In this document: in pieces, positions 6,929-33,235 of the stretch
How the letters are laid out: the number at the start of each line of letters is the position of its first letter
How positions within the stretch are numbered: position 1 is the first letter of the stretch
Source of the DNA: Rheinheimera sp. 1928-s
GTDB taxonomy: Bacteria; Pseudomonadota; Gammaproteobacteria; Enterobacterales; Alteromonadaceae
NCBI RefSeq assembly: GCF_029269265.1
Contig: NZ_JARIXP010000001.1
Span: forward strand, 60,398 to 124,397
Direction of reading: 5' to 3'
Length of the DNA: 64,000 bases
Made by a program: the position numbers and the translations under genes
Notes under the pieces: generated by a model
Database searches by the model: none
Told to the model about the DNA's origin: nothing
Seen by the model: the letters and a program-made list of their open reading frames with translations, nothing else

Positions 6929-7004
6929 TTGTTTTCTGTAATCACAACAGGTTACGATGATCTGGCATTTTTCTTTGTAAGCGACTGATTTTTAAAATAT
7001 AGCC

Positions 7005-10756: not shown

Positions 10757-10757
10757 A

Positions 10758-13001: not shown

Positions 13002-13030
13002 TGAGCAGCGAAGCTCAAGAGGTTTAATTA

Positions 13031-16689: not shown

Positions 16690-16701
16690 CAAGGAGGTAA
16701 G

Positions 16702-19700
16702 GTGGTTAGTCAAACAAACGAGCAAGCGCTAGAGTCGGCCATTGAGAAGCATTTAACTGGCACCTGCTTAGAAGAATTAAAAGCTGGTGTGGGAGAAGCT
16801 AGGCCTGGCTTTGGCAACACTCAATATCGGATTGGCCAACCGTCTGACTTCAACACGCAGTATGCACTTGATGAGCATTTTTTCTGGGCCTTCTTGGAAA
16901 AGACACAACACGATGAACTAGACAAAGTTAAGCGCAATAACCCCAACGACTGGCGGCTGAAGATCTACGAACGCTTTGACCGGCTGATTAAAAAGCATGG
17001 TATTTTGCACCTTCTAAAAAAAGGCTTGAGTGTAGATGATGCCCACTTTAATCTCATGTTTCCGGCACCTCTTGTCAGTAGCAGTGATAAGGTAAAGCAA
17101 AACTTTGCCGACAATCTGTTTAGTTGCACCCGCCAACTGCATTATTCCCAAACGAACCCTTTGCAAGAAATTGATATGGTGCTGTTTATTAATGGCATTC
17201 CATTGATAACTTTGGAACTGAAGAACCCCTGGACCAACCAAACAGCACGTTATCACGGTCAGAAGCAGTATCGGGACGACAGAGATACCAATCAGCCACT
17301 GTTAAATTTTGGTCGCTGTTTAGTGCATATGGCAGTAGACACCGATGAGGTGTATATGACCACCAAACTGGCAGGAAAAAGCACTTTCTTTTTGCCATTT
17401 AATAAAGGCCATAACTTAGGTCAAGGTAACCCGACGAACTCTAAAGGACATAAAACGGCTTATCTGTGGGAAGATGTATTTAGAAAAGAAAGTTTGGCCA
17501 ATATTATCCAGCATTTTGTAAGGTTAGATGGAAGTAGCAAAGAGCTGCTCAACAAGCGAACTCTGTTCTTCCCTCGTTATCATCAGATGGATGTGGTCAG
17601 GCGACTGGTTACACATGCAGCCGAAAATGGCGTTGGCCAGACCTATTTGATCCAGCATTCAGCAGGTTCCGGTAAATCGAACTCTATTACCTGGGCTGCT
17701 TATCAGCTTATAGAAACCTATCCAGTGTCGGATAGTGTGCCTGGCAGCAGAGGTATGGATCAGCCGTTATTCGATTCAGTGATTGTTGTCACCGATAGAC
17801 GTCTTTTAGATAAGCAGCTTCGCGACAATATCAGAGAGTTTTCTGAAGTGAAAAACATTGTGGCCCCTGCTCATAAGTCTTCTGAGCTGAAGTCTGCGTT
17901 GGAAAATGGTAAGAAAATCATTATTACCACGATCCAGAAATTCCCTTTCATCATTGATGGGATTGCTGATTTAAGTGAAAAGCGCTTTGCTGTGATCATT
18001 GATGAGGCGCACAGCTCTCAATCAGGTTCTGCTCATGACAATATGAATAGAGCTATGGGAAGAGCCGAAGTTGAAGAAGTCGAAGACGTACAAGATAAAA
18101 TTTTACAGGCAATGAAGTCGCGCAAAATGCGAGGAAACGCCTCTTATCTGGCATTCACTGCCACACCAAAGAACACGACATTGGAAAAGTTTGGCGAACG
18201 CAAGGCTGACGGTAGCTTTAGGCCATTCGATCTCTACTCAATGAAGCAAGCTATTGAGGAAGGATTTATTCTTGATGTTTTGGCTAACTATACAACCTAT
18301 AAAAGCTATTACGAGATTGAAAAATCCATAGAGGATAATCCTGAGTTCGATACTCGCAAAGCGCAGAAGAAGCTACGGGCTTATGTAGAGCGCAGTCAGC
18401 AGACCATCGATATCAAAGCTGAGATTATGCTGGATCACTTTATCCCACATATAGTGAATCCTAAAAAGCTTAAAGGTAAAGCCAAAGGCATGGTAGTGAC
18501 GCAAAATATCGAAACGGCAATTCGTTACTACAAGGCTATTACGCGAATGTTGGTTGCACAAGGTAACCCATTTAAAGTTGCGATTGCTTTTTCTGGCTCC
18601 AAGGAGGTGGATGGTATTGAATACACTGAAGCCGATATGAATGGTTTCGCTGAAGGGGATACTAAAGATAAGTTTGACACAGACGAATACCGTTTGCTGA
18701 TTGTAGCAAACAAGTACTTGACTGGTTTTGACCAACCCAAGCTTTGTGCGATGTATGTTGATAAAAAGCTGGCAAGCGTGCTTTGTGTGCAGACACTTTC
18801 TAGGTTAAATCGTGCGGCACCTAAATGGGGTAAAAAAACGGAAGATCTTTTTGTGCTTGATTTCTTCAACTCAGTTGATGATATCAAGACTGCTTTTGAC
18901 CCATTTTATACCGCGACATCCTTGTCTGAAGCGACAGATATTAATGTTTTGCATGAGCTGAAAGACGAGTTAGATGATGTGGGTGTGTATGAATTCATCG
19001 AAGTTGAAGAGTTTATAAAGCGATATTTCAATGACGAAGATGCCCAGAAGTTAAGTCCAATCATTGATATTGCAGCCAACAGATTCAACATCGAGCTGGA
19101 ACTAGAAAACGATGCTAAGGCAGACTTCAAAATCAAAGCCAAACAGTTTGTGAAAATTTACGGCCAGATGGCGTCAATAATGCCCTATGAAATAGCTGCC
19201 TGGGAAAAGCTGTTCTGGTTCCTTAAGTTTCTGATTCCAAAACTCAAAGTGGAAGACCCGGATGCTGAACTGCTGGATGAGTTACTGGATTCGGTAGATC
19301 TAAGCTCATACGGCCTTCAGCGTGTAAAACTTGGGCATTCTATTGAACTGGATGAAGCAGAAACAGAGTTAGAGCCACAGAACCCCAATCCACGGGGAGC
19401 GCATGGCGGTGATAAGCTAAAAGACCCTTTGGATGAAATCATCAGAAGTTTCAATGAGCGTTGGTTCCAAGGCTGGAGTGCGACACCTGAAGAACAGCGG
19501 GTTCGTTTGTTGAGCATGGCAGAATCCATTAAGTCTCACCCGGATTTTAAAGACAAATACCAGAACAATTCTGATCCACACAGTCAAAGTCTTGCCTTTG
19601 AAAAGCTGTTTAAGGAGATCATGTTGCAGCGCCGCAAGGACGATCTAGAGTTCTATAAGCTCTTTGCCGGAGATGACGCATTCAAATCCTCGCTGATGCA

Positions 19701-19728
19701 AAGCATGCAGCGGCTTGTGGGCTTGTAG
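16702..19728 (+). CDS. hsdR: Type I restriction-modification endonuclease subunit
   Basis: The 1008-residue HsdR carries an N-terminal PD-(D/E)XK nuclease (EIDMVLFINGIPLITLELKN region near 155-175), a helicase Walker A AGSGKS (321-326) and a DEAH box (434-437), followed by the SF2 motif FTATP. It translocates DNA and cuts unmodified invaders. The start is GTG at 16702 with a strong AAGGAGG five bases upstream. It completes a full, apparently intact hsdMSR set. Confidence 0.93.
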   Translation: MVSQTNEQALESAIEKHLTGTCLEELKAGVGEARPGFGNTQYRIGQPSDFNTQYALDEHFFWAFLEKTQHDELDKVKRNNPNDWRLKIYERFDRLIKKHGILHLLKKGLSVDDAHFNLMFPAPLVSSSDKVKQNFADNLFSCTRQLHYSQTNPLQEIDMVLFINGIPLITLELKNPWTNQTARYHGQKQYRDDRDTNQPLLNFGRCLVHMAVDTDEVYMTTKLAGKSTFFLPFNKGHNLGQGNPTNSKGHKTAYLWEDVFRKESLANIIQHFVRLDGSSKELLNKRTLFFPRYHQMDVVRRLVTHAAENGVGQTYLIQHSAGSGKSNSITWAAYQLIETYPVSDSVPGSRGMDQPLFDSVIVVTDRRLLDKQLRDNIREFSEVKNIVAPAHKSSELKSALENGKKIIITTIQKFPFIIDGIADLSEKRFAVIIDEAHSSQSGSAHDNMNRAMGRAEVEEVEDVQDKILQAMKSRKMRGNASYLAFTATPKNTTLEKFGERKADGSFRPFDLYSMKQAIEEGFILDVLANYTTYKSYYEIEKSIEDNPEFDTRKAQKKLRAYVERSQQTIDIKAEIMLDHFIPHIVNPKKLKGKAKGMVVTQNIETAIRYYKAITRMLVAQGNPFKVAIAFSGSKEVDGIEYTEADMNGFAEGDTKDKFDTDEYRLLIVANKYLTGFDQPKLCAMYVDKKLASVLCVQTLSRLNRAAPKWGKKTEDLFVLDFFNSVDDIKTAFDPFYTATSLSEATDINVLHELKDELDDVGVYEFIEVEEFIKRYFNDEDAQKLSPIIDIAANRFNIELELENDAKADFKIKAKQFVKIYGQMASIMPYEIAAWEKLFWFLKFLIPKLKVEDPDAELLDELLDSVDLSSYGLQRVKLGHSIELDEAETELEPQNPNPRGAHGGDKLKDPLDEIIRSFNERWFQGWSATPEEQRVRLLSMAESIKSHPDFKDKYQNNSDPHSQSLAFEKLFKEIMLQRRKDDLEFYKLFAGDDAFKSSLMQSMQRLVGL

Positions 19729-19774
19729 CACCGTCAAGGGGCATGGCTAAACTATTGGATAGTGGAGATATCTC

Positions 19775-21526
19775 TTGATTTACCACGGACTTGGAAACGA
19801 TCTTATTAATTTTGCGTTTGACCCTATTAAATATCGGAATGTTCTGGGGGTCCAGGCAAGTCCCACAGTAAGAGTATTTAATAAATGCCTAAATATAGTA
19901 ATGCCATACAAAACAGATATTGAAGAGTTCGAAGAATTCCTATTCGGCATTATTCTCCAAGCTGAGGAGCAGATTAACAAACTCAGAAACGGCCCTCCTA
20001 GCGGAATGTATGATAGAGATAAGTCTAATTTAATCAATAAAATCAAAGATTATCTGAGAATAGATGTCAAAAACAGCAGGGACGGAGCCACAGATCCAGT
20101 TCATGCACAAGCTATTTTGGATTACACCGATAATCAACTTCTTGTGACCTTCGGTTACAATGTAGATAGGCTTTCTGAACGCTACGGCATCAAAAGAGAG
20201 CATTTTTTGCTGATTGATGGGGCTATTGTCATTTCGGCAATGATGCTGAGTGAAATATATGTGTTTGTGAAATCTGGCTACATCAGTATCAGGAAGCTAA
20301 AAGGCGGTTTTGAATTAACTCTTAAAGATTCAACTGTGCCATATCACAAGGCGCTTGGAGTATCTGAATTACTTGAAAAAAAATCAACTGATGCGGATGA
20401 ATTTACTCTTTACAGCGCAACTTCCATGATGAATAGCGGATATGTTCCTCTTGACGTTGCAGAGCACACTATAGATGAAGTGTTTGATAAGGTTTTATCG
20501 ATTCAGCCTAAGTATTTATCTGATGAAGCTAAAGCGTCAGAGCACTACCGTTTTATCAGGGAATGTGTAGCCATTATGGCATTCACACAATGCTTTAAAC
20601 TGCGGGGACAGGACATACCTGCTAAATTCTTTTTCGATAATCAGCTATGTCGCCCCGAATCACTGACTTTTATCTGTAACAACCTGCGTTCATTAAACTC
20701 CTTAAAAGGAAACCATTTTAGTGCGTTAGATTTTGATGGCAGATCATTTAAGCCTGGTGACCTTGAGTTCAGTATCGCAACCCGTCATTTCGTCTTCGCT
20801 GCGTCTGAGTTGCTCAGTACAAAGGTAGATACCAAGAATGAGCTAATTAAATTTGGAGATGTCTTCGAAAAGGACTACATATACAGGCGCATACAGAGCA
20901 TAAACCCTGCTCGATACCAGATCTATCCAAGCCTTAACCCTAATAATAATGCGGAAATTAAAGGTTATGATATTGACCTAGTTATCGAAGATAAAATGTT
21001 TGATCAGTTCTATTTTGTTCAAGTGAAGTATCGCACGAAATGGTTGCCTAAGTATTATTCTGAGCGCTATTGGGAGTTAAACAAGGGGTTACTGCAAAGC
21101 TACGAACGTCAGTTGAGGATATTCAAGGATAACCTTAACCATCAAAGCATCCGTAAAAAGCTCAGCCAGCAAAAATACAAAGGGTTAGAACGTGCTACAG
21201 ATGAAAATTCGCATTTCGTGTTCCTGCACAACATTCCATTTCTGAATTTTTACGAGTTAGATGGCATCTACTTCTATGAATGGAATTTATTTCGAAACTT
21301 GATGCAGGGAGCAAAGGTCTATTTTACGCAATACGACACAAAGGGAGCTGAGACGAGAAATCCATTTATGCTTCACGATATCGTTGCAGCTTTAGAAGCA
21401 TATATTGATGATAAAAATGCGAAAACATCAATAAGACCAGATTTGGAAGCTTATACCAATTCGTTAGTGCAGTTGAAAGTAAAGTCTCATGGGAAGACTA
21501 CCTGTGTTGATATGCCTTTGGTTTAG
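19775..21526 (+). CDS. Uncharacterised protein with a nuclease-like segment, downstream of hsdR
   Basis: I do not recognise this 583-residue protein as a named family. Around residues 395-420 a pattern GYDIDLVIEDK followed by FYFVQVKY looks like a PD-(D/E)XK nuclease core (Asp, then Q-x-K). The rest is mixed alpha/beta without signal peptide or membrane segments. The start appears to be TTG at 19775 with GGAG eight bases upstream. It lies 46 bp after hsdR in the same direction, so it may be an accessory of the restriction operon, or an independent defence gene that joined it. Confidence 0.55.
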   Translation: MIYHGLGNDLINFAFDPIKYRNVLGVQASPTVRVFNKCLNIVMPYKTDIEEFEEFLFGIILQAEEQINKLRNGPPSGMYDRDKSNLINKIKDYLRIDVKNSRDGATDPVHAQAILDYTDNQLLVTFGYNVDRLSERYGIKREHFLLIDGAIVISAMMLSEIYVFVKSGYISIRKLKGGFELTLKDSTVPYHKALGVSELLEKKSTDADEFTLYSATSMMNSGYVPLDVAEHTIDEVFDKVLSIQPKYLSDEAKASEHYRFIRECVAIMAFTQCFKLRGQDIPAKFFFDNQLCRPESLTFICNNLRSLNSLKGNHFSALDFDGRSFKPGDLEFSIATRHFVFAASELLSTKVDTKNELIKFGDVFEKDYIYRRIQSINPARYQIYPSLNPNNNAEIKGYDIDLVIEDKMFDQFYFVQVKYRTKWLPKYYSERYWELNKGLLQSYERQLRIFKDNLNHQSIRKKLSQQKYKGLERATDENSHFVFLHNIPFLNFYELDGIYFYEWNLFRNLMQGAKVYFTQYDTKGAETRNPFMLHDIVAALEAYIDDKNAKTSIRPDLEAYTNSLVQLKVKSHGKTTCVDMPLV

Positions 21527-21734
21527 CTGCGGAAGTTTAATTCTCTATAGCACGGTATATGCTTGGTATAATCAGATGTACTGGCTCATATATTGTGTTT
21601 GATGACTGGATTGTTACTATGGAGCATGAGAGTTATCTCTTTGGTTTTGATTAAGGATTCGACACCTACAATCAACACTGGTAACTCTCACCGTTTCAAG
21701 GCGATGTGTCAGAGCGAGTCGAAGCTAGTTCATA

Positions 21735-21771
21735 TAATGTGAACAAAGCCTATGTAATTTTGTTCACATTA
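21735..21771. terminator. Perfect 13-bp inverted repeat between convergent genes
   Basis: TAATGTGAACAAA (21735-21747) and TTTGTTCACATTA (21759-21771) pair exactly around an 11-nt loop. The site lies between the 583-residue gene (plus) and the DUF4365 gene (minus), so a two-way terminator is plausible. It lacks a clean U-tract and could instead be a protein-binding site. Confidence 0.5.
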
Positions 21772-21789
21772 ACCAATTTGTTATCTTTA

Positions 21790-22629
21790 TTATTCAACCA
21801 TTTTAATAATGGTTTTGTGTTTATCGCTAGTTGACCAAGCTCGCCTGAACTCATAATCATGATAACAATCATTTTCCATCACGTCTGGTAACATACTAAT
21901 AATTACCGATTTAATTTCTTCGTATGTTTCATATATACTGTGAACATCGCTTGTTAATTCGCTTAACTTATTGTTTTTAGAAGTCATATCGTCGATTTTA
22001 TCTACCAAATAACAAGCTGTATTAAAGTTCTCCATAAAATAATGAGCGGTTATTAGATCAAAATTATTGTAATTTTCGTAGTCATAGCGGTCATATTCTT
22101 CACTGTAGCAAGGTTCCCCAACTTCAAGCCATAAGTCATACAGTTTTTTGTATGTTTTATTTAATATAGCGAGTTCGTTTTTATACGGTAACCTTACAAG
22201 TTGTGATAGTGAGCTGGGTGAAAGTAAATCATCCTGAGTAAATCTAACATCTACTGTTTTCTTTTTTTCTTCTTTTTCTTTATGCAATTTATTTCTTGTA
22301 TCTTTTTTATTGACAAGCTTCCAGTAAATTTTAGGTTCATTATCATTAAAGGATACTAATACTAAGATCACGGGATCGCTTATAGACTCCCAATATTTTA
22401 GATGCTCCAATTTTATCGATATTTTAAGCTCAGGATTAATGGAAGTCTTAATTTGTGCTGCTAGAAACTCCCCTGTAGAATGCATAGCTTCATCCATAAT
22501 TTCAATTTGTGCATCAATACCAATATCCACGTCAAGCAGTCGGCATGGCCAGTTGAGATATCTCAAAACCCAGTAGGCGAAGTAGTGCTCCGCAGCCTTT
22601 CCATTTGCATTATTTAAATCTAACTTCAA
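21790..22629 (-). CDS. DUF4365-domain protein, probable nuclease-like defence protein
   Basis: The 279-residue protein has the DUF4365 pattern: NxxGKAAEHY at the start, then VDIGIDAQIE (Asp35, Asp39), AAQIKTS (Gln59, Lys61) and HLKYW with PVILVLVS. This resembles a PD-(D/E)XK nuclease core, and the family is common in defence islands. The activity is not proven. The start is a TTG at 22629, chosen because the conserved N-terminus begins at once and a TGA lies just upstream. A structured attC-like sequence precedes it, suggesting it arrived as or next to a gene cassette. Confidence 0.7.
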   Translation of the reverse strand: MKLDLNNANGKAAEHYFAYWVLRYLNWPCRLLDVDIGIDAQIEIMDEAMHSTGEFLAAQIKTSINPELKISIKLEHLKYWESISDPVILVLVSFNDNEPKIYWKLVNKKDTRNKLHKEKEEKKKTVDVRFTQDDLLSPSSLSQLVRLPYKNELAILNKTYKKLYDLWLEVGEPCYSEEYDRYDYENYNNFDLITAHYFMENFNTACYLVDKIDDMTSKNNKLSELTSDVHSIYETYEEIKSVIISMLPDVMENDCYHDYEFRRAWSTSDKHKTIIKMVE

Positions 22630-22639
22630 AACTCAATCA

Positions 22640-22726
22640 GTCCTTAAAAACATAACGCCGCCAACACGCGCGGCTTTGAAGCCGAGGCGAAGCCGCAACG
22701 AAAAGGCGTCGGTGTGCTTTGCATTA
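22640..22726 (-). repeat. attC-like integron cassette recombination site (candidate)
   Basis: The short space between two minus-strand genes is GC-rich and strongly self-complementary. Outer arms (CATAACGCCGCC near 22650 and GGCGTCGGTGTG near 22705) pair imperfectly, and inner arms GCGGCTT and AAGCCGC pair exactly. On the minus strand it ends GGCGGCGTTATG just before the next start codon, like the GTTRRRY core end of attC sites, although the core match is imperfect. No integrase gene is present in the window. Confidence 0.5.
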
Positions 22727-23425
22727 TTAGCCACTCTTGAACATGAGCGTAACCCGAGATCCTTCGTATATTCTAAGATACATTATTGTATTGACTAGAT
22801 CATTCCCGCTTGCCACTTGATAGCAAAATACGTCAGGGTTCTCTCCAAATCGTTCACAATTTTCCATAAGCTGCTCAGTACATTGCTGCATCCTTTCATT
22901 TGGCTCATTCAAATCTCGCGCATCAGGTTCCGTGAGATGCATAAGGAAGTGAGGGTAAGCTTGGACAGTACCAAACCAAGGCTTTCTAAAATGGTGGTAG
23001 TACAATGCACAACCAATAGACTGAAGAGATGAATTAAGTCTTTTCTCATCTATTCGGACAGCAATAGTCTGATGAGCCTCTCCAGTCACATTATCGACAG
23101 CGGTAACTGGAACATTCGTCTCTGTGATGCTTTGGATTAAAGATGGGTTGTTTTCAATCGCTCTTAGCGCTTTCTTGAAGAAATAGTTTTCAGCTGTTTG
23201 ATTGTTAGGAATATTGAGAAGCAGCGTGTACAGAAGATACTCGTCGTCCTTTGACTTCTGGCTGTTGTGCAGATCACATGATGGAACAGTTATGAGTTGT
23301 TTCCGCAGATCCTCCCCATCAGGCAAATCCTTTTTCTGCGGAAACAAGCACCGCGGCGGGACATGTTCCACCGAAGTTTTTGGCTGACTACACATATAGC
23401 AAGTTTCTTTTGTCACGCTAATCAA
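22727..23425 (-). CDS. HNH-like zinc-finger protein of unknown function
   Basis: The 232-residue protein starts with C-x2-C (CYMC, Cys9 and Cys12), then EHVPPRCLFP and SCDLHNSQKSKDDEY. This is the arrangement of an HNH-type nuclease (Cys pair, His, second zinc pair, Asn/Asp). The rest is not recognised. The start is uncertain: TTG at 23425, or GTG at 23416. It ends directly at the attC-like hairpin, as a cassette-borne gene would. HNH-like proteins of this kind occur in defence islands, but no partner is evident. Confidence 0.5.
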   Translation of the reverse strand: MISVTKETCYMCSQPKTSVEHVPPRCLFPQKKDLPDGEDLRKQLITVPSCDLHNSQKSKDDEYLLYTLLLNIPNNQTAENYFFKKALRAIENNPSLIQSITETNVPVTAVDNVTGEAHQTIAVRIDEKRLNSSLQSIGCALYYHHFRKPWFGTVQAYPHFLMHLTEPDARDLNEPNERMQQCTEQLMENCERFGENPDVFCYQVASGNDLVNTIMYLRIYEGSRVTLMFKSG

Positions 23426-23879
23426 TCCATTCTGGCTAACAGCTTACTAGTACGAATTCCCGGTTAAGGACGTTATCCACAACCTTACCTTTTCCAACTA
23501 ATGATTTTTTTATTTAATAATAGCAACCAGTTATCAGGTGCTTTTCTCACAAACAGCAAAGGAAGATGCTAAAAAGTGAGCCATTACTTATTCTAACCTT
23601 ATCCAACTCGCTAAGTAATTTATTTTCCCATTGAATATCAGATGGCTATGTTTTATTAGCGCATAACCGAGCCGTTTTTGTTTAGTACATAGTGTGCGAA
23701 AACCAACATCATTTGCAGATTTTTACTTATCCATGTTGTTGGCGCGAAGGTCTACTACTGGTACTAAGCTGACAGTCAGATTTGATCAAGCTCGATCATG
23801 ACAAGGGTCAGATGAAATTAAGGCTAATCCCGATGAGATAGTCAAAGGCTCAATTAATAGTTAGTTTTAGTGGGGCCTC
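23426..23879. other. Gene-free stretch between the HNH-like gene and the HsdM-like gene
   Basis: AT-rich sequence of 454 bp with stops in all frames. I see no intact gene, no clear terminator and no long repeat. A GTTATCC near 23471 faintly recalls an attC core but has no matching partner arm. Confidence 0.5.
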
Positions 23880-25262
23880 TTAGGTATCCTCAGAATTTGT
23901 GACGTTATTCAGTTTTGAAAGCAAATAATCTGTCATTTTCTGCTGCCTCGCTAACTCTTGCCGAATTAAGTCTGAATCTATTTCTTCGTGATGGTCATCG
24001 ACACTTTTAACGTAACCGGATACGGTTAATAGCGCTGAATTTGGGTCAATATCATGCACATCGACTAGAGAAGTCATGCCGCTATCAACATTGTCCATAT
24101 GGTACAGACTTGCTAACTTTTCGATATTAGTTAGCTGATTGCATCTACCATCAAACGTGCAAAATGAGCTGGCATCAATGAATTTTATTTTGGTATTGTC
24201 ACCCCGGTTTTTTTTCATGACCAGAATATACAGTGGTACTGTGCGAGAGGTGATCAGCTTTGGTGGAAGCTGAATGACGGCATCGACAAAGTTACCCTTG
24301 AGTAAAAGGTTACGTGCTTCACTTTCAAATTGCCTGTGAAGTGGGCCTTTGCCCAAAATCACAAAGCCTATACCGTCCTGCTTCAACGACCAGATAATGT
24401 GTTGGATGAAGCCATGTTCGCGATACTTATCAAAAATGGTGCCTGCGATAATTCGATTGTCGATGAATGTCTTATTTAACCTCTTTTTTTCTTCGTATTC
24501 GGCTAGCTCGCTGGTTTCAGTGGGCTGAAACAATGTAAACGCGACGTCAAAACTTTCAGGTTCTACATTAGCTCTTGGTGATAAGGCATAAGAGTGTTTT
24601 GTATCTATTTCACTAACACCAGCTATTACCAGCTTGTGGTTAATGTACTTAGCCGTTTGCATCACTGATTCAGTAGTAATAGACGCATTGATACTATGCA
24701 AGGCGTAAGAAACTGAAGACTCCCCAGTTGTTGCGTAGGGGTCGTAAGCTCTATGCGAGAAACGTCTATTCGCGAGGAGAGCAATTAACTCTGAAAAATC
24801 AAAAGGAGGTTCTTGGTAGTTAAAGTTTTTTCCCAGCCTGTCCTCAGCGTTCATTGTTTGTAACCGCTGCAAAACATGATCGTATATGACTGTCAGCTCA
24901 TTCGCGGCTGAATTTAGCAGCGTTCCAGACTCATTTAAGAACGCCATTTTTTCTGCCATTTGAGTAATTTTTTCAACGTTGTTTAAGTTTATTATTGCAG
25001 TGAAAAACTCTGTAAAGTGAAAACGGTGGGACGGCTTTTTATACTCAAACCCCGCATCCAGCAATTGATCTACATCACTGTTATCAGCCACATCAGATAA
25101 TTGTTCGAGAAGGGGAGCGTAATATCCGTTTTCTAGGTGGTTCACAAAACAGATAACGAGATAGGACAGAAAAACATCGCGCTGAGGGATGTTGTCATGG
25201 ACAAAGCCTGACAAATTGAAGGTTTCAACCAAATCTCGAACTAACGATTCAGAATCGATCAT
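23880..25262 (-). CDS. Degenerate HsdM-like (N6-adenine methylase fold) protein, probably inactive
   Basis: About 460 residues with the general layout of HsdM: helical N-terminus, Rossmann-like centre (IIWSLKQDGIGFVILGKGPL, then VDAVIQLPPKLITSRTVPLYILVMKK, as in type I methylases). Both catalytic motifs are destroyed. The SAM motif DPACGSGG reads DPYATTGE (about 174-181). The NPPY/F position reads TLFQPTET. The reading frame itself is intact, so the protein seems kept for a non-methylating role. The ATG at 25262 overlaps the stop of the half-HsdS gene (ATGA). The pair is divergent from tnsA. Confidence 0.7.
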   Translation of the reverse strand: MIDSESLVRDLVETFNLSGFVHDNIPQRDVFLSYLVICFVNHLENGYYAPLLEQLSDVADNSDVDQLLDAGFEYKKPSHRFHFTEFFTAIINLNNVEKITQMAEKMAFLNESGTLLNSAANELTVIYDHVLQRLQTMNAEDRLGKNFNYQEPPFDFSELIALLANRRFSHRAYDPYATTGESSVSYALHSINASITTESVMQTAKYINHKLVIAGVSEIDTKHSYALSPRANVEPESFDVAFTLFQPTETSELAEYEEKKRLNKTFIDNRIIAGTIFDKYREHGFIQHIIWSLKQDGIGFVILGKGPLHRQFESEARNLLLKGNFVDAVIQLPPKLITSRTVPLYILVMKKNRGDNTKIKFIDASSFCTFDGRCNQLTNIEKLASLYHMDNVDSGMTSLVDVHDIDPNSALLTVSGYVKSVDDHHEEIDSDLIRQELARQQKMTDYLLSKLNNVTNSEDT

Positions 25263-25843
25263 TTCAAGTCTTCCCATAGATTACTGAAAACGGCGTTAAT
25301 GTCTTGCTCCCTGCTCTTCATCAACTGTTGATGTAAAAACATTTCTTTTTTGATGCTATTAGCCGCCTCTGTTATCAGACGTTGTCGTTCCAAATCTATA
25401 GCGGGTAGTGGGAGTTTTGAGAGTATTTCTTTGCTAATTGCACTTTGATAGCTGCCGCCTGCATTGTCACTCATCCAGCGCTGAGCTTCGGAGCTATTAA
25501 GGTAATGAGCCAAAAAGTCTGGTAATAGCGGTTTATCGGTTTGTACTCTGAGTACAAAGAAATGTTGGTTTGCAACAATGTTTTTGGGCACAGAATCTAA
25601 GTATATTGCCTTTTTTACCGAACCTTTAGCCACAATCAATACATCGTTCAGCTTTAACGAATTGTCTACTTTGCTGCTGGACAGGTTGGTCTTGCCTAAT
25701 TGCTCCCAACGGATTGGACGCAGATCGTTAGTCGTATCAACATCGCGGAGTTGAATGACTGAATGCGTTGGATCGTCTGATACCGGTATGCCGTTTTTAA
25801 AAGTTCTTCCAGAGCTAATATCCACAAGTTCTTTCAGTTTCAT
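25259..25843 (-). CDS. Half-length HsdS-like protein with a single target-recognition domain
   Basis: About 194 residues from the ATG at 25843, which is preceded by AAGAG. There is one TRD (start MKLKELVDISSGRTFKNG) and one C-terminal helix (IDLERQRLITEAANSIKKE). Complete HsdS has two TRDs. Half-subunits are known to dimerise and then read a symmetric bipartite site. It is coupled to the inactive HsdM-like gene. Two symmetric CCCACT-N5-AGTGGG sites lie directly upstream; a GTG at 25888 inside one of them is a less likely start. The complex may bind these sites. Confidence 0.7.
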   Translation of the reverse strand: MKLKELVDISSGRTFKNGIPVSDDPTHSVIQLRDVDTTNDLRPIRWEQLGKTNLSSSKVDNSLKLNDVLIVAKGSVKKAIYLDSVPKNIVANQHFFVLRVQTDKPLLPDFLAHYLNSSEAQRWMSDNAGGSYQSAISKEILSKLPLPAIDLERQRLITEAANSIKKEMFLHQQLMKSREQDINAVFSNLWEDLK

Positions 25844-25883
25844 TGCTTCACTCTTTTCTGCGACAACCCTAACCTTATCACAA

Positions 25884-25970
25884 CCCACTACAGAAGTGGG
25901 ATTAAAAAATTGACATTTTCAAATATTCGATCAAAAATTTGATGGCTCATTAGCCCACTATGGAAGTGGG
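25884..25970. promoter_or_regulatory. Twin bipartite palindromes in the tnsA / half-hsdS divergent promoter
   Basis: CCCACT-N5-AGTGGG occurs at 25884-25900 and again at 25954-25970, exactly 70 bp apart. Between them on the plus strand is TTGACA (25910-25915) with a weak -10 AAAAAT (25933-25938). The second palindrome therefore covers the expected transcription start of the tns operon, and the first sits near the half-hsdS promoter. Symmetric half-sites separated by five bases fit recognition by an HsdS-type dimer; that link is inferred. Confidence 0.65.
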
Positions 25971-25972
25971 AG

Positions 25973-26848
25973 GTGCGGCTGATAGGTAGATGTATATTTA
26001 AAAGTAAACATTTACAGGTTTTAAAGGTGCAACCTATGGGTATGGGTAAAACAAGGGTTCGAACCACGAGTTCAATACAAAAAGCTTGGATTACAAATTT
26101 CGAGCAAAAATCAGCACGTGGGGACTACGAACCATTTTACAGAACTCAAGATATTACTTCGTCTGGTATCAAAGGAAGAATTCCTTGCCCAATAAACCCT
26201 GGGCTTGTGTATCACACACTTTCGTTGAATGAAACTTTCACACTCATCCAACTATTGCATGATCCGTTGGTGGTAGACATAAAAGAACAATACCCTGAAT
26301 TAGATGTTAAAAAGTCAAAAGCATTTGCTGAGGCTTTGGGGATAAAGCATCCGAGACACGTCTGGAGTTCAACAGAATCAGTTATCACTTGGGACTTCCT
26401 GGTGGAGTTAAAGTTTGGTCCCAAACGAGCGATCAGTGTTAAGCCGGAATACTTATTGAAAGACAGACGAACGGTTGAAAAACTGAAACTGGAGAAAGCT
26501 CTGGCGGAAAGTTTGGGATATGAGCATATTGTGGTTACTGATAAGCAGGTGAAAACCGAGGAAGTCAAAAACATATTTAGAATATTGAGAGGTGCAAACT
26601 TACCCTCTGATTTAAAACGTATTTATTCAACATGGTTTCAACATTTTAGAGCACTTGTGCGCGAGAGCTTTTATCGTCCACTGTCTGAAACTGTTGAGAG
26701 CCTAGCTTGCGACAATCATCTCAGTTATGTCGATTCGTTCACATTGATGCAACACGCATTTTGGGTTTGGGACATCACTTCAGATCCCACAGTGCCACTT
26801 TATCCTGAATATTCTCCTTACGTTTTGGGGGTAGAAATTCATGCTTAA
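25973..26848 (+). CDS. tnsA: Tn7-like transposase subunit TnsA (endonuclease)
   Basis: TnsA cuts the 5' ends of the element and so allows cut-and-paste movement. The catalytic acidic and lysine residues are visible, numbered from the GTG at 25973: Glu105 (DIKEQYPE), Asp141 (TWDFLVE) and Lys157 (ISVKPEY). The true start may be the ATG at 26036, preceded by AAAGGTG, because the GTG lies tight against the CCCACT palindrome. tnsB overlaps the end by 8 bases. Confidence 0.9.
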   Translation: MRLIGRCIFKSKHLQVLKVQPMGMGKTRVRTTSSIQKAWITNFEQKSARGDYEPFYRTQDITSSGIKGRIPCPINPGLVYHTLSLNETFTLIQLLHDPLVVDIKEQYPELDVKKSKAFAEALGIKHPRHVWSSTESVITWDFLVELKFGPKRAISVKPEYLLKDRRTVEKLKLEKALAESLGYEHIVVTDKQVKTEEVKNIFRILRGANLPSDLKRIYSTWFQHFRALVRESFYRPLSETVESLACDNHLSYVDSFTLMQHAFWVWDITSDPTVPLYPEYSPYVLGVEIHA

Positions 26849-29096
26849 TTACGACACGTTACTTTCACCAAATCCATTAGTTGAATCTGCACTTGTAGAC
26901 GAAACTATGGTTGTCGTAGCCGTTTTTCCCGAGAGAGATTCGATCTGGCTTTTACCATACATAACAGTTGGGGAAAACAAAACCAAAAGCCCTGACAGAA
27001 AGCCTTTAGAGTTCGAATTGTCTTGTATTGAATCAGCAATACAGAACGGTGATTTGGTAACCGAACAGTTGCAGTTGGCAGCTTACCAAGACGTACCTGA
27101 GGAGTACTTACTTGATAGAGATGGCAATAAAATACCGTCAGCAGTAGAGCGCGACCGTAGGTATGAAATTGTTAAAAAAGCCTTGAGCTACGAAGACGAG
27201 TTGTTTTATCCGCTGCATGGCAAAGGTGTCATTGCCAAAGTAGCTAAAGAATTTAAGGTGACCCGTCACAACGTCCAGCGTTATTTAAACGAATATTTTC
27301 GCGGCGGCAGACATATTAATTCCCTTATCCCCAAAACAGGTCGTCACTCTACTGCTCCTGGACAGGATGCAAAGAAAATTGGGGCGGCACGAAGCACTGA
27401 GATACTTGGTATTGTCGGGAAAAATGTTGGGCCAACGGATTTAAAAAATATTTGTACGATTGCAAAAAAACACTATGTAAACAAGAAGGGAAAATCACTG
27501 CAATGGTGTTTTAAAGCGCTACTTGACGAGCACTATGCGTTAATCAAAGGAAAAATCCTCCAGGATGGTTCAAGAATAAAAACTGTACATGTTCCCGAAA
27601 ATGAGCAGATCTCGTTTGGTCAGTTTTACTATTGGTTGCCAATAGTATTGGGCATGTCACGAAATGAAATAAAAGCGAAGCGAAGACAATATGCTACTCA
27701 TAAATCAAACTTTGCCGGAAGAACTGGTGAAGTGGCTTATAATAGCCTGGGACCCGGCCAGGCTTTTCAGCTTGATTCGACTGAACTTGACATTGTAATA
27801 GTGTCACCCTATGACAGAAGAGTATCTTTAAAGAAAGTTACGTTATATGTCGTAAGGGACGTGTATACGAGGGCGATTGTTGGTATACATGTTGCCAGTG
27901 GCAAAGCTAGTTGGTACGAGGCAAGACTGGCACTGTTAAATGCATTTCGTGACAAAGTCTTAGTTGCGAAAGAATGTGGGTTAACTATTGAGGCAAGTGA
28001 CTGGATAGAATCAGGTGTTCCTCAAGTTTTATTAGTTGATAACGAGGAGTTTGCCAACAAGATCAGTGCCTCAGTAGGCCGTGACTTGGGTCTTATTGTT
28101 CAATTTAGCCGAGCTTATTCTGGTGATGACAAAGGTTTAGTCGAATCGAGTTTTCATATGCTGCATGCAATGATGCGGAATGAGGAGCTGGCAGGTTTTC
28201 AATACAAAGGTTTGCTCGGAAGAAATAGACAGTTGCCGAGAACCACTGCTGCTCTGACCCCCAGAGATCTGCAACAAATACTCATCATTTTTGCGATATA
28301 CCACAATCGCTGCGTTTGGAAAGATGATTACCCGTTAGAGCAGGCTGCCGCGTTTGACGGTGTTAAAGAAGTGTGTCGTGATTACTGGATTTGGGGGATA
28401 AAAAACAGGCCTTACTACCTTACACAAAAGCCGTTGCGCACGCTGTATTTGAGCCTACTTGAAGTTGGTGAACTGACTTTGCATAAGACTCATCTGATGC
28501 TAAAGGGCACACATATTAAATATCGTTGCGACGACGTTCGAGTGGCTAGGCTACAAGATAAAGCTGAAGGGCGAGCGAAGAAGCCATCATTACGCTGTCG
28601 CTATATCCGCTCCACCGTAGATAAAATTCTAATCGAACTCGATGGTAAATTGGTTATTGGTGAACTTCATTCTTGCCAGCAACAGTTCCAAGGTCTATCT
28701 CATGCAGAGTTTCAAGCCGCTTGGAAGATGCGTAAAGTACGCAAAGATATGCATTTGCATGAAGTTTCGGGAGAACGCAGCGATACTTCTCTATTAATTA
28801 GGCACATCAATAGTGAAGCAATAAAAACCAGAGATAACTTCATAGAACAAGCAGATGCTGCGCCGACTATAGATACAAAAACCGCTACTCAACTTCAAAT
28901 TTCCGATAGTTATCAGATTGATAATGAAATGCTTGATCGCGCCACAAAACCACAAGCTAGCGTATCTGTCGTGAACAGCATTGCAGTAACCTTGCCGGAA
29001 GACAGCGCTGGAGCGGCAAGCCCACTTGAAGTAACGCCCAATGATACAAGTGTTGATATTCTCGATGCTATTCTGCTGGAGATGAATCATGGATAA
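26841..29096 (+). CDS. tnsB: Tn7-like transposase subunit TnsB (DDE transposase)
   Basis: The 751-residue protein has an N-terminal helix-turn-helix region (VIAKVAKEFKVTRHNVQRYL). The retroviral-integrase-type catalytic core has Asp312 (QLDSTELD), Asp400 (LLVDNEEF) and Glu435 (GLVESSFH), so all three DDE residues are present. A C-terminal tail follows that in Tn7 contacts TnsC. It binds the GAAGACA repeats at the ends (inferred) and joins the 3' ends to the target. It overlaps tnsA and tnsC, forming a tight operon. Confidence 0.93.
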   Translation: MLNYDTLLSPNPLVESALVDETMVVVAVFPERDSIWLLPYITVGENKTKSPDRKPLEFELSCIESAIQNGDLVTEQLQLAAYQDVPEEYLLDRDGNKIPSAVERDRRYEIVKKALSYEDELFYPLHGKGVIAKVAKEFKVTRHNVQRYLNEYFRGGRHINSLIPKTGRHSTAPGQDAKKIGAARSTEILGIVGKNVGPTDLKNICTIAKKHYVNKKGKSLQWCFKALLDEHYALIKGKILQDGSRIKTVHVPENEQISFGQFYYWLPIVLGMSRNEIKAKRRQYATHKSNFAGRTGEVAYNSLGPGQAFQLDSTELDIVIVSPYDRRVSLKKVTLYVVRDVYTRAIVGIHVASGKASWYEARLALLNAFRDKVLVAKECGLTIEASDWIESGVPQVLLVDNEEFANKISASVGRDLGLIVQFSRAYSGDDKGLVESSFHMLHAMMRNEELAGFQYKGLLGRNRQLPRTTAALTPRDLQQILIIFAIYHNRCVWKDDYPLEQAAAFDGVKEVCRDYWIWGIKNRPYYLTQKPLRTLYLSLLEVGELTLHKTHLMLKGTHIKYRCDDVRVARLQDKAEGRAKKPSLRCRYIRSTVDKILIELDGKLVIGELHSCQQQFQGLSHAEFQAAWKMRKVRKDMHLHEVSGERSDTSLLIRHINSEAIKTRDNFIEQADAAPTIDTKTATQLQISDSYQIDNEMLDRATKPQASVSVVNSIAVTLPEDSAGAASPLEVTPNDTSVDILDAILLEMNHG

Positions 29097-30561
29097 CATC
29101 ATTCGATTTCCCGCGTCCTACAACAAAGACTTACCCGCAGAATATCTTGGTAATCCCTACATAGAGGCGTTACCAGAGATGATGGATAAGAAATCATATT
29201 TTGAAACGGTTATGTTTTTGCCTCGATTCGACAAAACTTTTCGTAATGAGCCAGATCACTTCAGAAAGGTAAAAATAGTTGAAACGTATAAGTACGTTGT
29301 ACCCAATGAGCATTACTATGATTTGTATAAAACACTTTGGAGAATGCTTTTTACTACTTATACCGACCGAAATAGTTTTGACACTGAAGCCGTAAAAGAG
29401 CATTACACCAAGCTGTTACTCAAGAAAAAAATGGATAGAGTATGGACAGGTACAACAGGTGAAAGCTTGCTGTTGACTGCACCAAGTGGTTTTGGAAAAA
29501 GTATGATGGTAAGGCGCATACTGCTGTCATTGACTCAGGTAATTGATCACGAGGTACATGAAGGTAAGAAGTTCAGGCAGCCTCAAATTTTGTGGATTTA
29601 TCTGAAGATCCCATCGAATGCTAATCGCAGAAGCCTCTGTCATTTGTTTTTGTCCGAAGTGGACAGGTGTGCTGGGACTGATTATGCACAGAAGACGCCA
29701 GAAAGCACACTGATCGGGAATTATGAGCGTATTTTTAGAACTATTATAGAAACGTATAAACTTGGCTTGCTCGTTGTCGATGAAATGCAAAATTTGACTG
29801 TCAGCAAAGCTGGCGGTGACCAAGAGTTCTTAAATTTCTTTAGTGAATTATCCGAACAATGGCGGCTTGGATTAGTCTTGATCGGAACGCCTAATATCAT
29901 TCCCATACTGGAGAAGACATTTTCTGCGGGGCGACGGTTAACATCTGGAGGCGATAAACATTACGAGCGATATGCAATCGATTCTCCAATTTGGGAAGGC
30001 TTGGTTAAAGCGCTTTGGCCTTATCAGTATGTGAATACACAAAAAGAATTGTATGACGCTAAAAGGCTTATTGTTGATCGAAAATTGTACGAAGAAATTT
30101 ACAAACTTACACAGGGGATCCCCTTTGTGTTTACCTTCTTATTTATACATGCCCAGATGATTGCTATTGAAAGTCCTGGTGCAGACGGTAACGAAGTGAT
30201 TGGGGTCGGCAACTGGCGGCGTGCGTATAACGAAAGTTCTACTCTTATTAGAGCTGCTATCGAAGATATCCGAGCCACTGGTGGCAAAAGCTATCCAGAT
30301 TTGATGCATGCTGCACAGTATCAATGTGCACCTGAAAAGACAGCTTTTATTGTAGAACTTCAAGCTATATTAACGAATAACTCCATTCCACCGAAAATTG
30401 CGAAAACGCTACGTGTAGAGATTTCTGCCTTCGAAAAAAACTATGTTTTGAATGAGAAAGAGCAGGCAATAATCGACAAAGTTAAGCAGCTCAATTTCTA
30501 CGAGGATATTGCTGGTCCAAGTGAGGCGTTTATAGACGGCGAATGTGAGGTGGTTAATTGA
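29089..30561 (+). CDS. tnsC: Tn7-like AAA+ regulator TnsC
   Basis: The 490-residue ATPase has Walker A APSGFGKS (131-138) and Walker B LLVVDE (227-232), followed by the conserved GTPN segment. TnsC couples the targeting protein (TnsD/TniQ) to the TnsAB transposase and controls target immunity. It overlaps tnsB by 8 bases, and its TGA overlaps the ATG of the next gene at 30561. Confidence 0.93.
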   Translation: MDNIIRFPASYNKDLPAEYLGNPYIEALPEMMDKKSYFETVMFLPRFDKTFRNEPDHFRKVKIVETYKYVVPNEHYYDLYKTLWRMLFTTYTDRNSFDTEAVKEHYTKLLLKKKMDRVWTGTTGESLLLTAPSGFGKSMMVRRILLSLTQVIDHEVHEGKKFRQPQILWIYLKIPSNANRRSLCHLFLSEVDRCAGTDYAQKTPESTLIGNYERIFRTIIETYKLGLLVVDEMQNLTVSKAGGDQEFLNFFSELSEQWRLGLVLIGTPNIIPILEKTFSAGRRLTSGGDKHYERYAIDSPIWEGLVKALWPYQYVNTQKELYDAKRLIVDRKLYEEIYKLTQGIPFVFTFLFIHAQMIAIESPGADGNEVIGVGNWRRAYNESSTLIRAAIEDIRATGGKSYPDLMHAAQYQCAPEKTAFIVELQAILTNNSIPPKIAKTLRVEISAFEKNYVLNEKEQAIIDKVKQLNFYEDIAGPSEAFIDGECEVVN

Positions 30562-31473
30562 TGGTGCCATTTCATTGCCCAATAATGCCTCAAGAGCATT
30601 TGTTCAGTTGGCTAAATCGCATTCATTTGCTCTTCGGCCATAGTAAATTAAAACATACGTTGGCTTTTTTAAAGGTTGCAGATAAGCCCTTTAAGAGCAG
30701 TAATCATAATCAGTCATCTGTCGATGCTATTGAGCTATATAAGCGAGAGATAGTTAATGATGCATCAGGTTTTGAGGTGCATTCCTCTCTCCCTTTATGG
30801 TCGCTAACCTTTGCTTTTTCGTTTTTTGATAATTGGAAGCAAAAAAATACTGTATCTGTTCCATCCGCATACGATGCCGGTAATTTTGCGTTTCAAAGTA
30901 ACTGGAAGTATTGCCCTCATTGCATACAGGAGGATATAGAACGGTGCGGTCACAGCTTTTGGCATGTAAAACATCAGTTGCCCAGTGTTACACATTTGTT
31001 ATGTGCATAAGACTCAATTAATTGAAGATGATTTATTGCGAGATCTGCGGAATAAGCTGATCCCGCAGGCTCATAATTTTAATGCGCAAAAGTTGGAGGA
31101 TGAAGTCGCGCTTCAGAACTGGAGTAAATTCGTCATTCAAGTATTTGACATCGTCGTCAAAAAACCAGAAGCGGGCGAATTTTTGGCCAATCAAATCAGA
31201 AGATACCTAAAAGTCCCTGCTGATTTGACTTACAAAGACAATGAGATGTTTCGGCCATTACAGACAAAATTTGATGAGGATATGCCTGATAGCATCTTGC
31301 GCCATCTGTTCTTCAGTTACAGCAAAAAGCGTGTGCGACCTCACAATCTTTTAAAAAATACACTGGGACATCGCCATACTGGGCGTTACGACATGAATTT
31401 CTCACACCCAGTGTGCTGGTTGGTAATCCTTTACTGGCTAAAAGATAAAGTGTCATGGGATTGCTGCGCCTGA
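30561..31473 (+). pseudogene. tniQ: TniQ-family targeting protein, broken by a frameshift
   Basis: Two frames together make one TniQ protein of about 305 residues. The first part runs to 31010 and holds the zinc-finger start WKYCPHCIQEDIERCGHSFW and HVKHQLPSV. The second part begins near 30988 in another frame with HICYVHKTQL, the expected continuation (Val-x-x-Cys-x-x-His). Removing one base near 30990 restores the frame exactly. The break is either a true mutation or a sequencing error. The next TniQ gene starts at the stop of this one (TGATG). Confidence 0.8.
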
Positions 31474-33074
31474 TGAAGCATGTGCCATTTTATTTACCCA
31501 TACCAGATGATGAAGTGCCATACAGTACAATTGTAAGATATGCATTGCTAGGCGCTTTTCGAGCGCCTCAAGCGATGAAGCAGGTTTTTGGAAATCCCAA
31601 AAAGCGAATTCATCCCTACCTTCCTGGACAAATTGAGAGGTTTGCTGACTTCTTTGAACTCAACTCTATCGATGTCATTGAAAAAAGTACAATTTACCCC
31701 CTTCTTAAATTCACGCAACCCACTTGCCTGGCGGCCATTAAAAAGGCAATGCAGAATTATACTGATGACAAAGTTCTGCTAAGCACTGCAATAGGCCATT
31801 CGAGGTTTCGTACTTTTTATGGACTAAGTTATTGCCCATGCTGTGTTAAGCGGGATATTGATGACTTAGGTTTTGCTTATTGGCATATCAAACACCAAAT
31901 ACCCGGAGTGCAGGTATGCTTTGAGCACGGCTGCCTTTTATTAAGTATGGCGATGGGAGACGGCTATAGTGATCGAGTTTTGTCGTTACCACCATTTTCT
32001 CCGGTAACAGCTGTTACCGGTTCACTCACTCAGCTAAAGCTTGCTCAATTCTCGGCTCATCTTTTTGATTTGAGCCGAACCTGTGATGTTAATTACAGAC
32101 TCGTGTATCAGCAATTACTTGAGAACGAGGGGTTAGTCAGCAGCACTGGCTGCTATATATCTATCAGTCGAGTGATCTCTGGTATGTCCGAGTACTGGAA
32201 AGGGTTAACTTTTACAAACCACTTAAAACCTGGAGTACCAGAAAAACTAAGTTCCTTCGACTTTTTAGGGCGCATGCTCAGAGCTGGAACTCATTATCAC
32301 GCACATCCATTAAAGCATCTTCTCTTCAGTTGCTGGCTTACTGACAATGATGTCACAAAGTTACTTACTACCCGCTCCTGTACACTTCATCAACAGAAAG
32401 TATCGAATAAAGAGATGAGTGACATCGAGAGTAAAGTACTGAAGTTGTTGAAACAGAGCGTGAGTTTGAACAAAATTGAGGAGCATATTGGTAAAAGCCG
32501 TTGTTATATTCGGCGGATCGCAGAATTGAACGGCATTACTCACCTGTCTAATTCACAAGCATATCGTGCAGATGTGCGAAGAGCCGTGTTAATAAAAGCA
32601 CTGTATGGAATGCACCGTGCCAAGATTGCGGAGCAAATGAATGTTGGTATTGGTTATGTTGAACAAGTGATAGGTAATTCTGCCGGAATGAGCGAATGGC
32701 GAAAGCACTTGCGAATACAGAAAAATGTTTTGGCTGCTTACACGCTTCTAAAGTCAGTTCGTAAAAAGAATCCAACGTGGAACAGGACTCGAATCAGGCA
32801 ACACGCAGAGTCCGCTTATTTTGTACTTTACAACCATGATAAATCTCTAATTGAGAAAGTGCTGCCTAAAGCCTTAAAACCAACTACGTATAAAAAAGAC
32901 TGGGCTGTAGAGGACGCTCGTATATTTGAGGAAATAAATAAGCTGAGCAATGTGGCAGCTATGTCTTTGTCAGAGATTGGTCGCAAAGTGAGTGACCACG
33001 GCTATCTTATACGCAAACTGACCAAGTTACCTAAAAGCCAAGCATTACTCGAAAAGCTTAAAAAACCATTATAA
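31473..33074 (+). CDS. tnsD: TnsD/TniQ-family target-site selector (intact)
   Basis: The protein of 533 residues begins at an ATG that overlaps the stop of the preceding tniQ frame. It has the TniQ zinc motif YCPCCVKRDIDDLGFAYWH, then HQIPGVQVCFEHGCLL near residues 117-155, and C-terminal DNA-binding-like helices with repeated helix-turn-helix appearance. TnsD recognises the attachment gene and recruits TnsC. Because the element sits at yhiN, this protein is the natural candidate for reading the yhiN 3' end; that is inferred. Confidence 0.85.
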   Translation: MKHVPFYLPIPDDEVPYSTIVRYALLGAFRAPQAMKQVFGNPKKRIHPYLPGQIERFADFFELNSIDVIEKSTIYPLLKFTQPTCLAAIKKAMQNYTDDKVLLSTAIGHSRFRTFYGLSYCPCCVKRDIDDLGFAYWHIKHQIPGVQVCFEHGCLLLSMAMGDGYSDRVLSLPPFSPVTAVTGSLTQLKLAQFSAHLFDLSRTCDVNYRLVYQQLLENEGLVSSTGCYISISRVISGMSEYWKGLTFTNHLKPGVPEKLSSFDFLGRMLRAGTHYHAHPLKHLLFSCWLTDNDVTKLLTTRSCTLHQQKVSNKEMSDIESKVLKLLKQSVSLNKIEEHIGKSRCYIRRIAELNGITHLSNSQAYRADVRRAVLIKALYGMHRAKIAEQMNVGIGYVEQVIGNSAGMSEWRKHLRIQKNVLAAYTLLKSVRKKNPTWNRTRIRQHAESAYFVLYNHDKSLIEKVLPKALKPTTYKKDWAVEDARIFEEINKLSNVAAMSLSEIGRKVSDHGYLIRKLTKLPKSQALLEKLKKPL

Positions 33075-33235
33075 ATCAAGTTTTTGTGAATAAATTTAAT
33101 TTGTTCTCGCTGCCCCTTTAAAGGGCAAAAAGGTTGGTGCTAAGATTAGCTTGTCTTTGCAAAATGGCAGACAAAACAACTGACTTTTTAGCCTGTGCTA
33201 TTATTGGTGTGTTTATTCAGAGTAAGGAGTCTAGT

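Follow-up and report, generated by a model that had tools for sequence, protein, structure and literature searches.

A predicted pseudo-methyltransferase HsdM and a half-HsdS as a probable autoregulatory repressor of a Tn7-like transposon in Rheinheimera

The window analyzed here, 64,000 nucleotides of the Rheinheimera sp. 1928-s genome (contig NZ_JARIXP010000001.1, positions 60,398 to 124,397), harbors a Tn7-like element in which an hsdM-like pseudo-methyltransferase gene and a half-length hsdS gene, both of the type I restriction-modification (R-M) kind, are transcribed divergently from the transposition genes. The pair is likely to be a dedicated autoregulatory repressor of the transposon, derived from a type I methyltransferase without its chemistry. 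A DNA-binding complex that controls itself and the tns genes had been proposed in the initial annotation of this DNA, and the proposal fits an apparently dead HsdM, a conserved linkage to tnsA, palindrome arms that change together and the exchange of pair and palindromes as one unit, while twin palindromes are clear in 6 of the 10 loci only.

The hsdM-like gene (23880..25277, minus strand) has an intact frame of 465 amino acids, in which the glycine-rich loop for S-adenosylmethionine (SAM) binding reads DPYATTGE and FQPT stands at the place of NPPY/F, as the initial annotation had correctly noticed, and the Pfam N6_Mtase match is confined to residues 274-428 (E 6.9e-21). The half-hsdS gene (25259..25843, minus strand) overlaps hsdM by 19 bp and encodes 194 amino acids from an ATG at 25843 that is kept as the start in close relatives; the listed open reading frame (ORF; 25259-25888, minus strand, 209 amino acids) begins at a GTG that falls within operator 1, one of the two palindromes described below. 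A single target recognition domain (TRD) had been assigned to this HsdS, and the assignment holds, as there is a single Pfam Methylase_S match and the structural model (mean predicted local distance difference test, pLDDT, of 89) consists of one TRD and a 43-residue C-terminal helix. Its best structural match is the half-size Esub1 (E 7.7e-13, TM 0.76, 23% identity), and HsdS subunits match as well. The single-chain model of HsdM (mean pLDDT 80) matches the M subunits of PacII (7vs4_B; Z 26.5, model residues 6-429, root-mean-square deviation 5.9, 392 aligned) and of EcoR124I (Z 24.9, along most of the chain), and by this model the window protein keeps the HsdM fold. A Pfam scan of both proteins gave N6_Mtase and Methylase_S only, with no match to TniQ or to a helix-turn-helix domain of the Xre or MerR type. 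The operon of the pair has no HsdS with two TRDs and no HsdR, the next genes encoding an unmatched protein and then a DUF4365 protein.

The region between hsdS and tnsA contains two copies of CCCACT-N5-AGTGGG, 70 bp apart from start to start, which are regarded as putative operators. Operator 1 (CCCACTACAGAAGTGGG, 25884..25900) lies between hsdS and the tnsA -35 element and operator 2 (CCCACTATGGAAGTGGG, 25954..25970) just downstream of the predicted tnsA promoter (TTGACA-N17-AAAAAT, 25910..25938, plus strand). Both sites and their spacing had been reported initially, but they flank the predicted -35 and -10 elements and do not fill the shared promoter. In the whole genome (4,641,281 bases) the exact palindrome is matched twice, both times between hsdS and tnsA, compared with a chance expectation of about 0.28 per genome (4.64 Mb / 4^12, equal base frequencies) and no match for a reversed-pattern control. 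The twin arrangement was reached by 0 of 300 dinucleotide shuffles under a strict score and by 1 of 300 under a looser one.

Relatives of the pair were found in a scan of genome contigs, which gave a Colwellia metagenome-assembled genome (L003) and Pseudoalteromonas aurantia 208 (L004) at 61-62% HsdM identity, and in whole-genome searches, which added L025-L029 and subsequently L087 and L088, together with two duplicates and the fragment L089. With the duplicates L090 (= L028, 99.6-99.8%) and L091 (= L003) and the fragment left out of the counts, there are ten distinct intact loci, namely the window, L003, L004, L025, L026, L027, L028, L029, L087 and L088. In all ten, half-hsdS directly precedes hsdM and the pair is divergent from a tnsA-like gene, with tnsB- and tnsC-like genes next to it wherever the contig extends far enough; the initial annotation had counted a lack of conserved linkage with tnsA against its proposal, and the linkage was found throughout. 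TnsA scores above the Pfam cut-off in the window, L025, L027 and L088, and is evident in L003, L004 and L087 from BLAST comparison with the window. TnsA and TnsB identity between loci drops to 11-20%, hence the linkage spans several transposase families.

The pair and its promoter have been exchanged as one unit. L003 and L004 are 90% identical in HsdM and 88% in HsdS, but 48% in TnsA and 42% in TnsB (the L003 TnsB is cut by the contig), and the window compared with L004 is 68% identical in both TnsA and TnsB and 61-62% in HsdM and HsdS. When L003 and L004 are compared in 50-base windows, 14 of the 18 from the hsdM start through hsdS and the promoter are 80-98% identical (lowest 58%), whereas every window from the tnsA start codon onward is 38-72% identical. 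This break at the tnsA start codon indicates that the pair is transferred with its palindromes from one tns core to another. Moreover, one core (L097; TnsA 66%, TnsB 70% identical to the window) lacks the pair, its nearest sizeable divergent gene encoding a cold-shock-domain/DUF1294 protein, so that the pair cannot be an obligatory component of the transposase.

The transposon family appears to be narrow, since a class-wide profile search matched 41 of 369 genomes at 1e-25 and the N-terminal half was covered by the window's own match only, so that a full-length member was found in no other genome of this sample. The corresponding search of the taxonomic order was positive in 3 of 394 genomes and that of the taxonomic family in 9 of 395 (own genome included; the samples drawn overlap). 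On plasmids, 985 records matched in the HsdM search, and the two matches that cover more than 80% of HsdM (H1 and H2), whose neighborhoods were examined, sit in ordinary R-M loci. In viral contigs, the dead-HsdM profile gave 17 loci, 15 of which match only from residue 278 onward (one just 318-368) and one of which matches 136-429, and the half-HsdS profile gave no match.

Across the ten transposon HsdMs, the SAM loop (DPACGSGG type) is kept in none and the catalytic NPPY/F including its asparagine likewise in none (the L088 alignment is loose here), while a Glu at the end of the former SAM loop is invariant (10/10). Judged by these motifs, all ten are catalytically dead. In a 52-row tree they form one group with 100/100 support, on long branches. 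For L003 and L004 the ratio of nonsynonymous to synonymous substitution (dN/dS) is 0.17 for hsdM and 0.17 for hsdS, which is the signature expected of purifying selection on both genes.

Further Tn7-like elements had been suggested initially as the place to look for the same neighborhood with co-varying palindromes, and this was borne out for the neighborhood in every locus and for the palindromes in part. Twin palindromes at 0 of 300 dinucleotide shuffles (strict score) are present in six of the ten loci: CCCACT-N5 in the window, L003 and L004 (70, 69 and 69 bp start to start), CTCACC-N5 in L087 (62 bp), CTCACT-N5 with one imperfect site in L025 (63 bp) and RCATTC-N8 in L027 (31 bp). The arms vary between loci, yet agree at both sites of one locus. 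The five aligned loci with N5 spacing show no variation in the TTGACA of the predicted promoter (5/5) or in a GATCAA block that lies between the operators. L028 and L029 share a conserved GCAACG-N7-CGTT block near the hsdS start. A further inverted repeat, GGTAAATG...CATTTACC, is present in L003 and L004.

In the proposed mechanism, two half-HsdS subunits would pair via their long helices, and their two identical TRDs, in opposite orientation, would read CCCACT-N5-AGTGGG, around which the dead HsdM subunits, with the HsdM fold kept, would close as a clamp. One clamp would occupy the stretch between hsdS and the tnsA -35 element, the other would bind just beyond the tnsA promoter, where the tnsABCD transcript begins, and both together would hold down the hsdSM and the tnsABCD directions. 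After the element enters a cell that lacks the repressor, tns expression would last until the pair has accumulated (zygotic induction). We infer the assembly of the pair, its DNA binding, repression as its sign and zygotic induction alike.

For the palindromes, the strongest rival explanation is RNA structure, in which they would form hairpins in two 5' untranslated regions, or attenuators, and would not be operators of the pair. Each palindrome is at a plausible position for the 5' end of a transcript, and the RNA fold of 25954-26050, which runs from operator 2 into tnsA and has operator 2 as its first stem, beats 200 of 200 shuffles (z -3.4). However, RNA hairpins need pairing within a site and not identity between sites, whereas the arms are the same at both sites of a locus (one imperfect in L025) and change together between loci, from CCCACT to CTCACC and CTCACT, and the scan of the region found no terminator-like site. 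RNA structure in place of operators is hence considered quite improbable. No greater probability is given to the pair activating the tns genes, or sensing methylation that the host or other R-M systems carry out. Activators often bind upstream of the -35 element, where operator 1 is located, and relatives with an active HsdM might methylate their own operators, but the position of operator 2 downstream of the predicted promoter suits repression.

A shade less probable again is that the pair serves as an extra target selector, the clamp marking a DNA site and passing it on to TnsC in the manner of TniQ/TnsD or Cascade; the initial annotation had raised this, together with a self-recognition module, and both went unsupported. 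The pair is a likely sequence-specific DNA binder encoded beside tnsABC, and target selectors of Tn7-like elements are modular according to the portions available of one survey (PMC10293859). Against this, the exact sites occur at the pair's own promoter only, in a search of the whole genome, and sites relaxed by one mismatch number 66 compared with 61 for the reversed-pattern control, for which reason two such sites 0.5 and 1.3 kb upstream of the window are taken as chance. Neither pair protein has a TniQ match, TniQ and TnsD genes are already in the element, and the L097 core does without the pair. The least probable alternative, that relict or decaying type I modification genes ride along as functionless cargo near unrelated palindromes, could draw on the lost catalytic motifs, on the defense genes and the complete type I R-M system that the element also carries, and on the frequency of type I R-M cargo in Tn7-like elements as given in available parts of another survey (PMC8649781), but it is largely refuted, as far as sequence comparison goes, by selection and linkage, with open frames in ten distinct loci, the low dN/dS, the same place beside tnsA in all of them and twin palindromes in six, and the one decayed copy, L089, looks different (a 152-aa hsdM fragment with no tns match in the 9 kb fetched).

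Half-HsdS genes also lead type I R-M operons. When plasmids were searched with the half-HsdS, 38 records matched, and 10 of them were opened; half-hsdS is followed directly by hsdM in nine (in Sulfitobacter, one small gene lies between), and within the stretch fetched a further hsdS is found in nine and hsdR in four, the tenth record being unannotated. The HsdMs linked to half-HsdS keep the DP[AT]CG[SA][GA] loop in 20/20 and NPPF in 19/20. Their upstream regions were compared with those of control hsdM loci, 44 in number minus 18 with an S-like gene upstream, which leaves 26; 5 of the 18 removed were already among 21 half-HsdS loci, and the other 13 were added to make 34. A perfect GCATCA-N7-TGATGC stands ahead of half-HsdS in 6 of these 34 loci (L106, L108, L112, L113, L119, L121), with related sites in L111 (GCACCA-N7-TGGTGC) and L115 (GCATGA-N7-TCATGC), and in none of the 26 controls, where the best match has two mismatches; in 2 of the 26 controls a single palindrome reached a p value of at most 0.05. 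Three controls (L009, L011, L013) group with the half-HsdS-linked HsdMs in the tree and may not be clean controls. Twin sites at no more than 2 of 200 shuffles were obtained in 5/34 loci (L106, L108, L113, L119, L123), spaced by 72-73 bp in L106 and L113. With 200 bp of upstream sequence and the first 15 bp of the ORF, this threshold was passed by L106 only; since start codons were uncertain, the first 60 bp of the ORF were then included, and L108, L113, L119 and L123 pass only in this longer stretch. Among 14 proteins with a clear site, half-HsdS identity correlates with operator likeness (Mantel r 0.66, 1/5000 permutations), a correlation to which shared descent could contribute part. Palindromes like TGCAGTA/TACTGCA were also seen upstream of half-HsdS, at about 150-190 bp in L132, L133, L134 and L136 and close by in L138, and are possibly another operator class or the sites of another regulator.

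From these comparisons, we infer that half-HsdS:HsdM would be an old autoregulatory device from which the transposon branch would derive, a descent that the tree, with its long branches, leaves undecided. L106, from a plasmid of Proteus sp. ZN5, combines a half-HsdS-led operon and an active-looking HsdM with nearby genes for a DDE transposase, an ATPase and TnsD; its operon is likely cargo of the neighboring tns genes and a possible bridge to recruitment. In its boldest form, the idea would make half-HsdS:HsdM a general, unrecognized class of transcription regulator whose ancestral setting would be type I R-M operons, where the active enzyme would methylate its own operators, with the transposon branch as a fixed pseudo-enzyme and DNA-mimic anti-restriction proteins of the ArdA or Ocr type, from plasmids and phages, as inducers; taken as a whole, this is unlikely. 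Such anti-restriction proteins are brought by plasmids and phages and disarm HsdM-HsdS complexes. The inducer idea was suggested by this general knowledge and by the structural matches of the HsdM model, which include EcoR124I and other M subunits bound to ArdA or Ocr.

Several observations weigh against the pair as an autoregulatory repressor. In four of the ten transposon loci (L026, L028, L029, L088), twin palindromes do not exceed chance under either the strict or the looser half-site score, and three of these (L026, L028, L029) have a TnsA under the Pfam cut-off (E 0.0034 to 6e-5). The promoter scan predicted a single tnsA promoter where 0.6 such hits are expected by chance, so that this promoter is not above chance on the scan alone, and it gave no hsdS promoter. 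Relaxed CYCACY-N5-RGTGRG sites occur elsewhere in several genomes at about the frequency of the reversed control. The HsdM model falls below a pLDDT of 50 at 143-158 and at 253-262, the latter stretch directly following the lost NPPF place. Among the half-HsdS R-M loci, 26/34 are without a perfect 6-N7-6 site of the GCATCA, GCACCA or GCATGA type. Finally, the sign of regulation by the pair could be activation.

The element that holds the pair is by its gene content and ends a Tn7-like transposon, with tnsA, tnsB, tnsC, TniQ/TnsD and related inverted ends. It extends over about 31.7 kb (2214..33910, approximate ends) downstream of a yhiN-like gene of the HI0933 family that ends at 2212; the left end at 2214 carries TGT and three GAAGACA-type repeats, an inverted matching end with one repeat is located near 33910, and an end of this kind is also present in L004. 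These end repeats beside the yhiN-like gene place the pair inside the element, at whose ends no clean 5-bp target-site duplication could be resolved. On the plus strand follow tnsA (26036..26848), tnsB (26841..29096), tnsC (29089..30561), a first tniQ split by a frameshift (30558..31473) and tnsD with TniQ and TnsD domains (31455..33074). The divergence of the pair from tnsA had been recognized initially, but the start of tnsA (MGMGKTR), conserved in L003, L004 and L087, is the ATG at 26036/26042 and not the GTG at 25973, and the operon given as tnsABCD is in full tnsA-tnsB-tnsC-tniQ-tnsD. The first tniQ, frameshifted in the window, has an internal stop in L025 (16397-17310) and is one open frame in L004, and a second targeting path may, from these sequences, be decaying in the window and L025 elements. 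Upstream of tnsA in L027, L028, L029 and L088 there is a small ORF of 64-106 amino acids with a GGAGG-like site, whose ending SFIDNTExPTxxRF is common to L028 and L029, with a weaker EPPT-type ending in L088 and neither in L027. The cargo comprises a KAP NTPase similar to QatA with an N-terminal IF2_N domain and a Fic protein (together 3389-6271, minus strand), a cyclic-oligonucleotide-based anti-phage signaling system (CBASS) operon (7005-11789, minus strand) with cyclase, E1-E2, JAB and SAVED-HNH effector, and, at 12057-19728 (plus strand), a WYL-domain regulator and, after it, a type I R-M system made up of an HsdM of 795 amino acids, an HsdS of 423 amino acids and HsdR; this system has intact motifs and is distinct from the dead pair.

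An R-M methyltransferase seems to have been turned into a transposon regulator here, a pseudo-enzyme that would read DNA through its TRD and whose operators change with it, and more widely, type I R-M operons that begin with a half-HsdS might be autoregulated by it. A transposon control switch of this kind could respond to anti-restriction proteins; if these are indeed inducers, an incoming plasmid would derepress tnsABCD at just the moment when it offers a new vehicle. For tool building, it would offer repressors whose sites might be read from pairs of TRD and palindrome.

Among known proteins, Esub1 (PDB 8vsq and 8vsr, the latter with Prx), a protein of streptococci to which the phage protein paratox binds, has the half-size HsdS fold of the window HsdS, and the type I methyltransferases EcoR124I and PacII share the HsdM fold over nearly the whole window HsdM chain. 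Both of these methyltransferases are active, and their HsdS reads an asymmetric site. The half-HsdS-led R-M operons (halfS-hsdM-hsdS-hsdR, e.g., L106) resemble the pair in a half-HsdS of about 200 amino acids just before hsdM and, in some of them, in palindromes ahead, with the twin spacing of L106 and L113, but differ in their active-type HsdM motifs and further hsdS and hsdR genes. RptR of defense islands is, like the proposed pair, a self-repressor at palindromes ahead of type I R-M genes, but is described in the available part of its report as a small all-helical binder of TAGCTA without HsdS or HsdM (PMC12255303).

With respect to the element, insertion beside yhiN is shared with Tn7-like elements of the Tn6230 type, Tn6230 being listed with yhiN as target (PMC11406308, Table 1, as available). 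In Vibrio, hsdS-hsdM-hsdS-hsdR has been reported as cargo of Tn7-like elements beside yhiN, downstream of tnsABCD (PMC12671221). This cargo has the same hsdS-hsdM start, element kind and site as the window and is described as R-M cargo only; in the accessible text of that paper, the word stem 'regulat' is absent and the cargo is given no regulatory role. Cargo of the Vibrio type may have been the source of the pair, and together with the L106 operon beside tns genes it means that a close-at-hand source exists. In searches of open-licence literature that barely touched on R-M autoregulation, no HsdM/half-HsdS regulator of Tn7-like elements was found described, an absence that is weak evidence. 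Term searches of the available text of two Tn7 surveys found no 'hsd' in one, where methylases and specificity subunits are given as R-M cargo (PMC8649781), and no 'hsd', 'methylase' or 'methyltransferase' in the other (PMC10293859).

The closest functional parallels are the regulators of CRISPR-associated transposons (CASTs), although no CRISPR-Cas genes were noticed in the loci listed here, in which no search aimed at CRISPR-Cas was made. RtaC/RtbC of I-F3 CASTs and VpxR of VpaI-7, all of the Xre type, as well as CvkR (MerR) of V-K CASTs, are, as far as the available sections of these reports go, dedicated regulators of element genes encoded within the Tn7-like element itself (PMC11406308; PMC12150760; PMC9938897), and zygotic induction upon entry into a naive cell has been reported for RtaC/RtbC (PMC11406308, in the part available). 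The pair has the corresponding traits of a dedicated repressor, as it lies in the element, beside tns in 10/10 loci and with likely operators above chance in 6/10. The regulators of Tn7-like elements met in the literature, Xre and CvkR, are helix-turn-helix proteins, and the pair differs from them as a two-subunit HsdM/half-HsdS assembly that would read DNA through TRDs.

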